This document shows, piece by piece, positions 1 to 62,700 of a DNA stretch of 64,000 nucleotides (the first letter of the stretch is position 1; every line of letters begins with the position of its first letter). Made by a program: the position numbers and the translations under genes. Origin of the DNA: Apostichopus japonicus (Eukaryota; Echinodermata; Holothuroidea; Aspidochirotida; Stichopodidae). The stretch covers positions 29,258,501-29,322,500 of the forward strand of contig NC_092568.1 in NCBI RefSeq assembly GCF_037975245.1. Direction: 5' to 3'. The notes under the pieces are model-generated. The model saw only the letters and a program-made list of their open reading frames with translations, had not been told where the DNA came from and did no database searches.

Positions 1-660
1 TTATTGTTCCTCTCCTTTGGTATCCTGGTACGGTGATCGCTGCACCAGATTATGCCTTGGTGCGATTGGAGAGGATCATTTATTATTTCATTTGGGGAAA
101 GTGCAAACCAAACCTTCTCCAAAGGACCGTTCTGTAAAAGACCCCCTTGAGCGGGTGGGCATGGTTTGGTCCACCTACCATCTTAACTGCGCTTTCTCCT
201 TTTGAAAGGTTTTTTCGTTGCGTTTGAGAACCCCTCGTTTGCCTTTTTTGTTAGGTTCTGGAGTGGTTTTCTTTTTCGCCACTACTGGCCCGGATCCTTT
301 TCCAATAACCGGCCAAAGGCGACACGCCCTTCGGGGGTGTATACTCAGATTGGTGACTCACTTTGCAGAATCAAAGAGGAGGGTGGGCCAGATGTTCTGC
401 TGAACGTGGCCCCCTCGGCTTGCCAAACCGCCATCTCTCCAGATGTGTGGTGTTCTGTGTGTTGTAAGTCACTAGATAGCCGTCTCCGGGACTTGGCGAG
501 GAGGATTGCACAGTGGGTCCTCATCACTAACCATTTTCACCTAGTCAGGTGGCGATTAGGTTATGGGATTTGTCCCTGTGTGGGCTGTAAAGCCATCAGG
601 ACTATGCAACACCTTTTGCTGGAGTGTCCCTTTGTCCGGTTGGTGTGGGAATGATGGTTT
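1..660 (+). mobile_element. Decayed non-LTR retrotransposon, 3' end of ORF2
   Basis: This is the C-terminal part of a reverse-transcriptase polyprotein, broken by frameshifts and stops. Near bases 33-140 one frame reads LERIIYYFIWGKCKPNLL, the block that follows the RT domain in many LINE ORF2 proteins. Around 560-654 another frame reads CPCVGC followed by HLLLECPFVRLVWE, the layout of the zinc-binding zf-RVT domain at the end of ORF2. A stop sits at about 140 and the frame shifts several times between the two blocks, so the copy is dead. It enters from beyond the left edge. The LINE clade is not assigned. Confidence 0.75.
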
Positions 661-1125
661 CACGCCTTCATTATTGGTGTTATTGGTTGTTATTGTTGTT
701 GTTTTGGTTATTAGTGTTATTGGTCGACCTCAGATGACTAGTGACCCGACTTAGCGTGTGTTGTTCGCAGAATTGACGTTGTGTTTATGAAGGGTGCACA
801 ATCGTACAAAATCTCTCAATGAGTCGGTATTCACATCTGGTCTGTTTTCCCTCAAGTTACCCTATTATATAGTTGACTCAATGCAATCAGTCTTACATGA
901 CACTCGTAACTCCCATATAATAACGGGCTTTGCGACAGTGTCTATCCACGGTCGATCACACCTCAAAGTTCCTCAATAAGTCCTAAGTGGCTTCCTGAGC
1001 CAAAGTGACACAATTAGAATACCAGTCATAACATATAGTCAGGGTGCTAGCCCGGTTTCATTTACACTATTGAGGACGGGAGGTTTGATGGTCCCGATCA
1101 GAAAAGGGCACAGGGGGTCTGGGGA
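661..1125. other. Intergenic stretch, nothing recognised
   Basis: It follows the retrotransposon relic and holds short TTG/TTA-rich segments near 672-722. It may be the 3' UTR of the same element. No gene is supported. Confidence 0.4.
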
Positions 1126-1512
1126 TTGAATATATATGAAATTTCCTTTTTTTTTCAGGGGGCCATCTTGGATTCTGGCCGCCATCTTGGAAGTGGGTGG
1201 CCCAAGCAACATACCATGACCATCATCTGTTTCAGTGAACTCGGAAACACCTTAATTGACCCCTCTTTTGTTCAACTCCGATTTTTACAGCCAGATATAT
1301 GACATTTCCTTTTTTTCTGGCGGCCATCTTGGATTTTGGCCGCCATCTTGGAAGTGGGTTACTCAAGCAACATGCCATGATCATCAACTGTTTCAGTGAC
1401 CCCGGAAACACCTGAATTGACCCCTCATTTGTTCATCTCCGATTTTTACAGCCAGATATATGACATTTCCTTTTTTTCTGGCGGCCATCTTGGATTTTGG
1501 CCGCCATCTTGA
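1126..1512. repeat. 161-bp tandem repeat carrying paired YY1-type motifs
   Basis: There are three copies of one unit, the last partial. GCCATCTTG, which contains the YY1 core CCATnTT, occurs six times in the same orientation at 1162, 1181, 1323, 1342, 1484 and 1503. Spacing within each pair is 19 bp, and equivalent sites in successive copies are exactly 161 bp apart. The rest of the unit (a T-rich run, a CAAGCAACAT block, a CGGAAACACC block and a TTTTTACAGCCAGATATATG junction) is also conserved. The array ends about 0.94 kb upstream of the YY1 start codon. Whether it regulates YY1 or belongs to a dispersed repeat cannot be decided here. Confidence 0.9.
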
Positions 1513-8402
<6,890 letters not shown>

Positions 8403-59707: not shown

Positions 59708-62700
59708 ATGGCATTATCTGCACCAGGAGATGGAGTCCTCACAAAGTGGTCTGTTCACTTGACACTTTTCTTCTTCATGTTTGGAATGATGCTGCAACAA
59801 TTCGTCGGACAGAATATGATATTGTACAAAATATGCATAAACGAACACGACGAAGACACTTGTAAGGATATGAGCTCACATCCGACCGTTCAAGATGGCG
59901 TACAAGTAGAAGCGTCGAAATTCATTATGTTACAAATGATATCTTTAGGTTTACCTAGCGCTTTTTCGACTTTAATCCTCGGTGCAGCGAGTGATCAATT
60001 CGGCAGGAGGAAAATCATGTTATTAACGAGCTTTGGTGTGACATTGTTCACATTATCGGTGTGGTATCAATCTACCCTTGCCGAGATGTCAGTAGTTATA
60101 GTCGTCCTTGGAGGTCTTGCAACTGGTGTCACCGGCGGGATCATGTCATTTATCGGTACCGTGACAAACTACATCACTGACGTCACACCAGCAGAAGAGA
60201 GGACTGCCACGCTGAGTACAGTGTTTCCTTTTATGGGGATAGGAGCAATGGTGGGAACTCTATCTGCCGGTTTTCTTGAATCGACTTTCGGTTTTCAAGT
60301 CGTCCTACTTTTTAGTTTCTGTGCTGAGCTCATTGCGTTACTGTTTGTGGCATTCTTTGTCAAAGATGTTCTTCCTCCTAAAAAGGATGATCAAACGAAA
60401 AGTATTTTGTCGGAAATAAAATCTGGAGCCAGCGTCCTATTCCAGGATAACACAGGAAACCGGAAGAGACTACTGCCTTTAGTGTTCAGTGATGTCGTGA
60501 ACATGGCCTTCATTATGTGTAAGTATATACATTATTTCGGGTTCCATTATATATATTTCTCTACGTGCGTAACGTACGGTGACTTTGTAAGGCATACACT
60601 TTCAACGGAGCAGATACATTATCGGAATAGGGAGGGGGAGAGGGGGGGGGTCAGAACTGAAGCCAAGGGACTAACCCGAGACGGGAAATGTAAGCTCGAG
60701 CACGTGGTGATGGAGGTGAGAGGAAGAGTGTGTTGGGTCTCAAAGTTTCGTTTTTATAATAATGTTCTTTTTATATATATATTATTATTGCGTTAAGCAG
60801 GAAATTGTTACCATTTTGGCTTCCTTCTATACACACTATAGGTGAAGGTTCGTTGATGATGTTGTACACAAATCGACCCCCTTTCAATTGGACTTCCAAC
60901 GCTTTCGGTTTTTATGCAGCGGCTAAACAGGTAATACAATCATTATCGGGTAAAATTGTGAATGCAGATGAAAAGGGGTAAGGATAGTTAACCGTGGCAG
61001 TCACCACCACGTGTAAGTTGTAGTAGTATAGTGCCTTGACTATGTTTGTCGACAAATTACAGTAAATGTTGGGTGACTAAATATAATCATATTGTAGTGT
61101 AGGTGGGCAAAACTTGGATCTCACGGTGGAGACATGCTTCGTTAAACGAACAAATATTTCGTTATAATTTCATTTGGTATCAACTGTTGTGCATTTTTAA
61201 ATTTTACATACAAATCGAACATTTCTCAAGAAAATAATAAATGAGAGTTCACTATTTGTCAACTCAAAACAAAACAATAACATTATAATTAATATGTAGA
61301 ACTATCCAAGAAGAAGTAGCATAGAACGGACTCAGATGAAGGTTCCAACTAATGGTTGGTGTTTATTATGTAATTTCACTCTCTTGCACACAAATGGCTG
61401 AGGGTTTTTTTTTTTTAAATATTGAACTGCACTCCACTGAACTATACTCCAGGATAACGATACCATTTTTGTCTTGTTAGGTTGCAGGTGTACTTGGTCA
61501 GGTGTTTGGGACTGGCATAATCATCAAGTTTATTGGAACTCAAAATATACAGACGGACTTCACCATACTGCAGATAGGAGTGTCAATGAACATCGTGGTT
61601 GCCCTCATCACAGCCTTCTCCAACAGTAGTGTTATGCTTTTGCTCGGTACGAACATCACTGAAATACAAACATATTGCATATTTGCATACAAAATCTCTA
61701 TCAAAAGATAGGACTGTGGGTAAAAAAAAAAATTGCAAATATTACACAGATAGATTGTTGTTTATCCCTTTAAAAGCAGAAATGGCATTTGTTAAAAACA
61801 TGCACTTTCTGATGTCATGAAAGACAAATGTAGAAAATTGATTTAGTTCGGTTTATTAATTTATGTATACATCGTTCCATTTTAATGACACCATGCAGTA
61901 ATTTAGGTTATACCGCACACAATGGCAACAATTTTTAATTTTAACATCTGAAATAAGAAAAAAATATATATGTTAAATCATGAAGGCCTATGTATTTTAC
62001 TGTCAATTGAAATTTATCTGATTTTTAATTATAATGTTTTCTTTATTATTTCCAGCGATACCTTTCTGTTTCTTAGCCGGACCGGCACAATCAGCAGGTG
62101 GATCTCTGACATCAAAACTGGTGTCTTCAGACAAAAAAGGTATGATCAGTTTCACACGTAGATCCAAAGAGGCTAACCGCAGGTTGAGGCGTCCCCCTTC
62201 TGAAATGTGTCTGGCACTTAAACAATAAGCTACAAAATAATATTGTTCAAAACAATTAAGATACATCATGAAAAACCTTAAGCGCTCTGCGCGTAGATAT
62301 GTTTACTTTTACCGGTGTTTAATATGCACTGCTATTTCACTAATAATTTCCACTAGATACTTACCTTCAGGCCACAACTTCTGAGAAAACCTGTCTCCGC
62401 CACTTAACATGAATACACTCCCAATGTTATTAACGAGCTTTGGTGTTACATTGTTCACATTATCGAGGACTGCCAGTGGCTAAAGCTGAACCAGTTATAC
62501 GTAAACATGGTTTGATGTTCATGCCCATGCAGACTCTCTAAGGAGGATTAATTTGCTACAAAAGTAGCCAATATATATATATCCATTTTATAGAATCCGA
62601 CTTTGAAATGTAACAATGTAATAGAAATAACTGGTGGTTTGTTGGTTTGTTGGTATGAGCGTAAAAGATGTAATTATAGATCAAACTCAGTGGTTGTATC

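Follow-up and report, generated by a model that had tools for sequence, protein, structure and literature searches.

The six YY1-type sites that form a regular array upstream of YY1 in the sea cucumber Apostichopus japonicus belong to a dispersed, non-autonomous DNA transposon, in whose right TIR they lie. Taken as a whole, the observations are very probably best explained by the chance insertion, beside the gene, of a transposon family that bears such sites, and not by an array that senses YY1. The story of a tailor-made sensor is unsupported, and two checkable ones replace it: that of the transposon family and that of a cluster of sites in YY1 intron 1. More generally, an array of motifs close to a gene should be searched for genome-wide before it is read as regulation.

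The array and the element that carries it

The window, meaning the whole 64,000-nucleotide stretch of DNA that was analysed, contains seven copies of GCCATCTTG against 0.48 expected, and none of 100 shuffles reached at least seven. Six of the copies stand on the plus strand upstream of YY1 (n = 6; Table 1), and the seventh is solitary, at 59891 on the minus strand. Successive spacings within the array are 19, 142, 19, 142 and 19 bp, giving a unit of 161 bp that TRF also reports, with 92% matches. The array lies 936–1285 bp before the YY1 ATG (2447). A sequence-only reading of this DNA had described six identical sites on one strand, a strict 19-bp and 161-bp spacing and a distance of 0.94–1.29 kb to the start codon. 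The sites are present exactly as claimed, the spacing is exact by both the positions and TRF, and the distance agrees.

The element at the YY1 locus measures 3,266 bp (C8:29256881-29260146), has its right end at window 1646 and landed some 0.8 kb ahead of the YY1 start codon. The window boundary cuts it, leaving the left half and its sites outside. Its two TIRs match over 696 columns at 97.3% identity, and both flanks bear the 3-bp target duplication ATA. The left TIR carries six further sites in mirror orientation to those of the window. The whole element therefore has 12 sites, six per end, set in tandem 161-bp units with two identical 9-mers each.

Table 1. Features of the window at and around YY1 (positions counted from the first letter of the window)
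Feature	Position	Strand	Basis
Right-hand 1,646 bp of the 3,266-bp non-autonomous TIR transposon (left 1,620 bp outside the window)	1..1646	+	ends TAGTCAGGTGGCTTAGCAAC on both sides
Transposon interior derived from LINE ORF2 (reverse transcriptase), decayed; right boundary approximate, from the L002 alignment	1..690	+	RVT_1/LINE alignment
Tandem array, 161-bp unit, 2.3 copies, within the right TIR	1132..1511	+	TRF
YY1-type site no. 1, GCCATCTTG, first of a pair	1162..1170	+	motif scan
YY1-type site no. 2, CCGCCATCTTG (= CAAGATGGCGG on the minus strand)	1181..1189	+	sequence, motif scan
YY1-type site no. 3	1323..1331	+	motif scan
YY1-type site no. 4	1342..1350	+	motif scan
YY1-type site no. 5	1484..1492	+	motif scan
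YY1-type site no. 6	1503..1511	+	motif scan
11-nt spacer of the "long" element end	1616..1626	-	end comparison
Terminal 20-mer of the TIR (TAGTCAGGTGGCTTAGCAAC read from outside)	1627..1646	-	end comparison
ATA 3-bp target site duplication (other copy precedes the left end)	1647..1649	+	flank comparison
YY1 exon 1, coding part; splice site by eye	2447..2972	+	sequence, ORF
YY1 intron-1 cluster, GCCAT cores 3261+, 3274+, 3297+, 3310-, 3323-	3261..3327	.	motif scan, shuffles; outside the transposon
YY1 zinc fingers 1-2, coding stretch	7262..7426	+	94.5% to 1ubd (55 columns)
YY1 zinc fingers 3-4, coding stretch	8109..8285	+	96.6% to 1ubd (59 columns)

A dispersed family with two kinds of ends

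The paired-site pattern recurs at 469 places of the 671.6-Mb genome (243 forward, 226 reverse), and among the 100 of these that were listed, minus arrays commonly precede plus arrays by about 3 kb. The terminal 20-mer, with at most three mismatches, is found at 265 places in the genome against 7 for its reversed control, a number that points to roughly 130 elements whose ends can still be recognised. All seven elements that were picked by the motif and read with their flanks have matching TIRs, of 0.44–1.0 kb, and share the end TAGTCAGGTGGCTTAGCAAC, in which L007 has one substitution. Each TIR of the elements inspected contains 2–4 copies of the 161-bp unit. Identical 3-bp duplications flank both ends in 12 of the 14 elements tested: beside ATA these are TAA, GTT, TGA, CAG, CTA, GTA, TAA, TAT, TGG, AGG and AAA. 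A matching duplication is absent in the other two, L003 (ACG/TGA) and L005 (TCA/TTA). The sequence-only reading had offered, as its alternative, a dispersed element that exploits YY1; the 469 places, the TIRs and the duplications bear out the dispersed element, and its use of YY1 is plausible. It had also likened the 161-bp period to a nucleosome repeat; the period holds, and it is the length of the unit repeated within each TIR. Finally, it had called for a genome search and named thousands of copies as one mark of a chance insertion. Dispersed copies are indeed there, but at hundreds of places.

A DNA search with one element tip, in which the best 40 of 351 candidates were scored and diverged members are not visible, gave matches at 98–99% over 93 bases for 39 of the 40, besides the query itself. 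In 8 of 12 elements the two TIRs resemble each other more than, on average, they resemble the TIRs at the same end of other elements (exceptions L010-L012 and L026; L008, L013 and L014 left out of the count). YY1 cores are not enriched in the flanks of seven elements (4 seen against 4.9 expected in 23,510 bases), so there is no sign of targeting.

The ends themselves come in two forms. Among 45 ends from the fetched loci, a TTAACG block follows the 20-mer after 1 nt in 19 and after 11 nt in 23, and the exact block is missing in 3. Short and long ends thus differ by 10 bp near the tip, about one turn of the DNA helix. Genome-wide there are 65 short and 86 long exact ends (151 in total). In all 43 plus/minus pairs of exact ends lying within 15 kb, one end is short and the other long, a count that covers 86 of the 151 ends, those with an exact partner. 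The span is 2.8–4.3 kb in 38 of these 43 pairs. This mixed pairing could be explained by shared descent; even so, both end types are retained in deletion derivatives of 651 bp, 1,046 bp and, by eye, 158 bp. The smallest derivative (L021:3831-3988) keeps both ends, with a CTA/CTA duplication seen by eye, and is without any complete YY1-type site; the sites may therefore not be strictly needed, unless L021 shrank after insertion.

None of the elements read is autonomous, and their interiors contain a piece of LINE sequence. In the YY1-locus element, an RVT_1 domain (E=1.1e-13) lies in the piece immediately left of the window (L001:4442-4960), and the 155-aa piece at window 187-654 gave no Pfam match. 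Three stretches of L002 within 886-2617 align at 89–92% to nt 2768-4715 of L016, an intact LINE with a 1,157-aa ORF. The interior is inverted relative to the end types in L004, L005 and L010-L012. Only the interior aligns to the LINEs: GCCATCTTG was not found in L016 or L017, two relatives of the captured LINE, nor was a 5'UTR with the 161-bp unit in either stretch, that of L016 beginning about 290 nt before the first long ORF, so that a longer 5'UTR is possible.

All long ORFs seen in the elements that were inspected derive from LINEs, and no transposase was found inside the oversized elements L008, L009 and L010-L012. Nor was one found up to 4 kb inward of 13 unpaired ends (L019-L031), taken from the 40 that have no listed reverse transcriptase match; seven of the 13 (L022, L026-L031) align to the LINE-derived interior. 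Two candidates for an autonomous partner were rejected. The 1,130-aa ORF of L008 belongs to a nested LINE (Exo_endo_phos + RVT_1), and the 11.1-kb pair of ends on C10 (L015, L018) belongs to an ordinary element that other DNA interrupts, in which no ORF exceeds 192 aa. L023, which has only its end in common with the family, holds no ORF above 144 aa in 14 kb. Distances from 159 ends (151 exact, plus 8 among the 100 of 265 end-like places that were listed) to transposase candidates, both lists being incomplete, are also large. The nearest of 117 DDE_Tnp_4 places (PF13359) lies 11.3 kb from any listed end and outside that element, the nearest of 21 Transposase_21 places (PF02992) at 110 kb, and the nearest of 45 P-type transposase places (PF21787) at 49.8 kb.

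Other features of these loci deserve mention in their own right. The LINE with the 1,130-aa EN-RT ORF is inserted in an element TIR (L008:3586-6975), with about 8 bp of TIR appearing on both sides of the insert. In L017, a second partial LINE copy begins 2 bp past the alignment end of the first. Directly behind an element TIR, L025:317-3703 has open frames of more than 1,100 aa on both strands and is apparently a simple repeat. Many long LINE ORFs (up to 1,158 aa) akin to the captured fragment crowd, among the best matches listed, in a few regions: C17 15.5-25.7 Mb, C16 26-31 Mb and C11 13.1-14.5 Mb.

The sites, YY1 and the competing explanations

Conservation bears on whether the element has a use for its sites. 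In a conservation model trained on the motif-found units of L001-L007 and scored on 20 end-found loci (80 unit rows), the two 9-mers have 23 mismatched cells in 1386 (1.7%), compared with 528 in 8145 (6.5%) for the other non-CpG columns of the same rows. Only 3 of 131 placements of a two-block window are as low or lower. Both sites are kept in 61 rows, one in 13, both are mutated in 3 and gaps occur in 3. Elsewhere in the unit, conservation is nonetheless of a similar level, with several 9-mers ranked above both motif copies; the copies are young, related and not independent, and the units used for training were chosen by the motif. Conservation of the pair is thus supporting, not decisive, evidence that the sites may matter to the element.

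The likeness to YY1 motifs goes beyond the 9-mer. The 11-mer AAGATGGCGGC, which we take to be the YY1 optimum, occurs 1,159 times in the genome against 37 for its reverse, partly in the arrays and partly elsewhere; C1, for instance, has 18 such sites, yet no paired-site place among those listed. No literature linking AAGATGGCGGC to YY1 was found in open-licence PMC. Other tandem repeats, with units of about 23–48 bp, have AAGATGGC in most units among 100 of 180 places listed (reversed control 16), as at C10:10317228-10318734, C4:22509887-22510716, C14:22116324-22116641 and C8:16261367-16261611. In mouse, the YY1 site of L1 Tf_III is GTCGCCATCTKG, which has CGCCATCT in common with the array (PMC11602158). 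YY1 activates transcription of L1 Tf, Tf_I and Tf_II show high YY1 ChIP-seq enrichment, and synergy between the monomers is attributed to their YY1 motifs (PMC11602158). This likeness, together with a better conservation than most of the unit, makes it plausible that host YY1 binds the array sites.

The sites would then be cis-signals of the element, bound by host YY1 as on the mouse L1 Tf monomers. Their likeliest use would be to keep the ends accessible and occupied by YY1 within chromatin, or to promote transcription there, giving a trans-supplied transposase the chance to work on them. Insertion beside YY1 would have come about by chance, and an influence on the expression of that gene, if there is one, would be a side effect. 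YY1 is said to form dimers and oligomers and to promote enhancer-promoter contacts (PMC11602158). YY1 sitting on the mirror-image TIR arrays might bridge a short and a long end for the trans-acting transposase, an improbable extension. If it were true, a DNA transposon would be using a conserved host looping factor for the synapsis of its ends, with a pairing rule like the 12/23 rule of V(D)J recombination, and the copy at YY1 would tie the gene's upstream chromatin to the gene's own product.

The sequence-only reading had named the gene itself as YY1, rightly so: its two stretches of zinc fingers match 1ubd, presumably the human YY1 zinc-finger chain, at 94.5% and 96.6% identity, so that the protein may reasonably be assumed to prefer YY1-like sites. 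The window's densest GCCATNTT cluster is found in intron 1 of this gene, with five cores in 67 bp. It begins 288 bp into the intron, in the orientation + + + - -, and five cores in 70 bp were reached in none of 2,000 dinucleotide shuffles of the intron (four in one shuffle). According to Kim et al. 2009 (PMC2743690), the vertebrate YY1 autoregulatory cluster lies at the start of intron 1, and most vertebrates have five conserved sites within about 100 bp, the outer two opposite. Sites 1-2 face one direction and sites 3-5 the other, the third being imperfect (PMC2743690). The same authors align clusters of sea urchin, amphioxus (four sites) and sea squirt (three), report none in fly pho and deem the cluster unique to vertebrates (PMC2743690). 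Window 3261-3327 resembles it in having several intron-1 sites within less than 100 bp, with the outer two opposed (PMC2743690). The third core, at 3297 (GCCATAA), is imperfect as in vertebrates (PMC2743690), yet it is oriented like the first two, unlike in vertebrates, which argues against exact equivalence. The cluster is nevertheless likely to be the counterpart of the vertebrate one, and it fits the autoregulatory element known there. If YY1 controls itself in this animal, it would most likely do so through this cluster. The upstream array at 1132-1511 is unlike it in being upstream and not locus-specific, given the 469 paired-site places.

The sequence-only reading had proposed that the upstream array could titrate or sense YY1 protein, which would mean that an inserted transposon end was exapted to close a feedback loop. 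Against this, the sites point away from YY1 when read as on the human L1 sense strand. The array does lie 936–1285 bp before the ATG with six of six sites intact, but the other six motif-picked elements retain 10–12 of their 12 sites, which makes intact sites here unremarkable. With about 132 copies in the genome, roughly 0.0009 copies would be expected to overlap any particular stretch of 1 kb. Finding one at YY1 is thus mildly notable, but it was singled out after the event, and this, with the lack of YY1-core enrichment in the flanks, is why we regard the position as chance. YY1 autoregulation is reported in mammalian cells (PMC2743690), but the documented cluster is intronic (PMC2743690) and a candidate for it is present in this intron 1. 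Identical paired-site arrays genome-wide, and an array that belongs to a TIR and hence would have arrived with the insertion, also speak against the proposal. A sensor or titrator at this place is very improbable, and the titration claim is not upheld.

Two further explanations concern the origin of the sites rather than the gene. One takes the paired 9-mers as binding sites of the element's own missing transposase, their likeness to YY1 sites being coincidental; it is possible, though we think it unlikely. In this view they would correspond to the subterminal repeats of other DNA transposons. The 9-mers are subterminal, tandem, mirror-imaged at both ends and fairly conserved, and the only long ORFs seen in the elements inspected come from LINEs, which makes a promoter role for an own gene moot. 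However, the match extends to the full AAGATGGCGGC, which is frequent outside the arrays too (the 18 on C1), and an accidental AAGATGGCGGC in a 161-bp unit has, by our rough estimate, a probability of about 1e-4. The other sees the array as a LINE 5'UTR promoter, captured and duplicated into both ends of a LINE-derived palindrome, an idea that is hardly credible. The interior does derive from a LINE ORF2, and mouse L1 Tf has tandem YY1 monomers (PMC11602158), but the absence of GCCATCTTG from L016, whose stretch starts about 290 nt ahead of the first long ORF, and from L017 stands against it, and target duplications with fixed 20-mer ends indicate DNA transposition. Insertion of a site-bearing transposon, our preferred explanation, accounts for the array without any YY1-specific history.

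Relation to known systems

With TIRs that have fixed ends, 3-bp duplications (12 of 14 elements) and dispersed copies, the family shares these features with Class II elements. Its long TIRs with tandem units inside resemble, by class description, foldback elements such as Tetris, which have long TIRs with tandem units. CACTA/EnSpm elements end in CACTA or CACTG, and the ends here begin TAGTCAGG. PIF/Harbinger elements prefer TWA targets; the 3-bp duplication is alike, but only 2 of the 12 matched duplications follow that preference.

Harbinger elements usually have 3-bp duplications (PMC2572040), and Turmoil-1, a Harbinger of C. elegans, likewise combines long ITRs (760 bp) with captured foreign coding sequence (PMC2572040). 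It differs in that Turmoil-1 has its own Harbinger transposase and its captures lie in the ITRs (PMC2572040), whereas in the sea cucumber family no transposase was found and the capture is interior. The Drosophila P element also has unequal ends, with spacings behind the terminal repeat of 9 and 21 bp (PMC7776569) where the present family has 1 and 11, a difference of about one helical turn in each case, and a review likens this 9/21 spacing to the 12/23 signals of V(D)J recombination (PMC7776569). P elements, however, have 8-bp duplications and 31-bp repeats (PMC7776569), in contrast to the 3-bp duplications and long TIRs described here. No DNA transposon carrying YY1 sites was found among the open-licence PMC papers listed, which does not imply absence in print. 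A close parallel is mouse L1 Tf, likewise a mobile element, with a small number of tandem monomers that each contain a YY1 site (PMC11602158) and have CGCCATCT in common with the array. Unlike in L1 Tf, the units here occupy the two TIRs of a DNA transposon, and each 161-bp unit has two putative sites. The family is thus a set of DNA transposons with tandem YY1-type units at their ends, like those of mouse L1 Tf, and with an unusual pairing of short and long ends.
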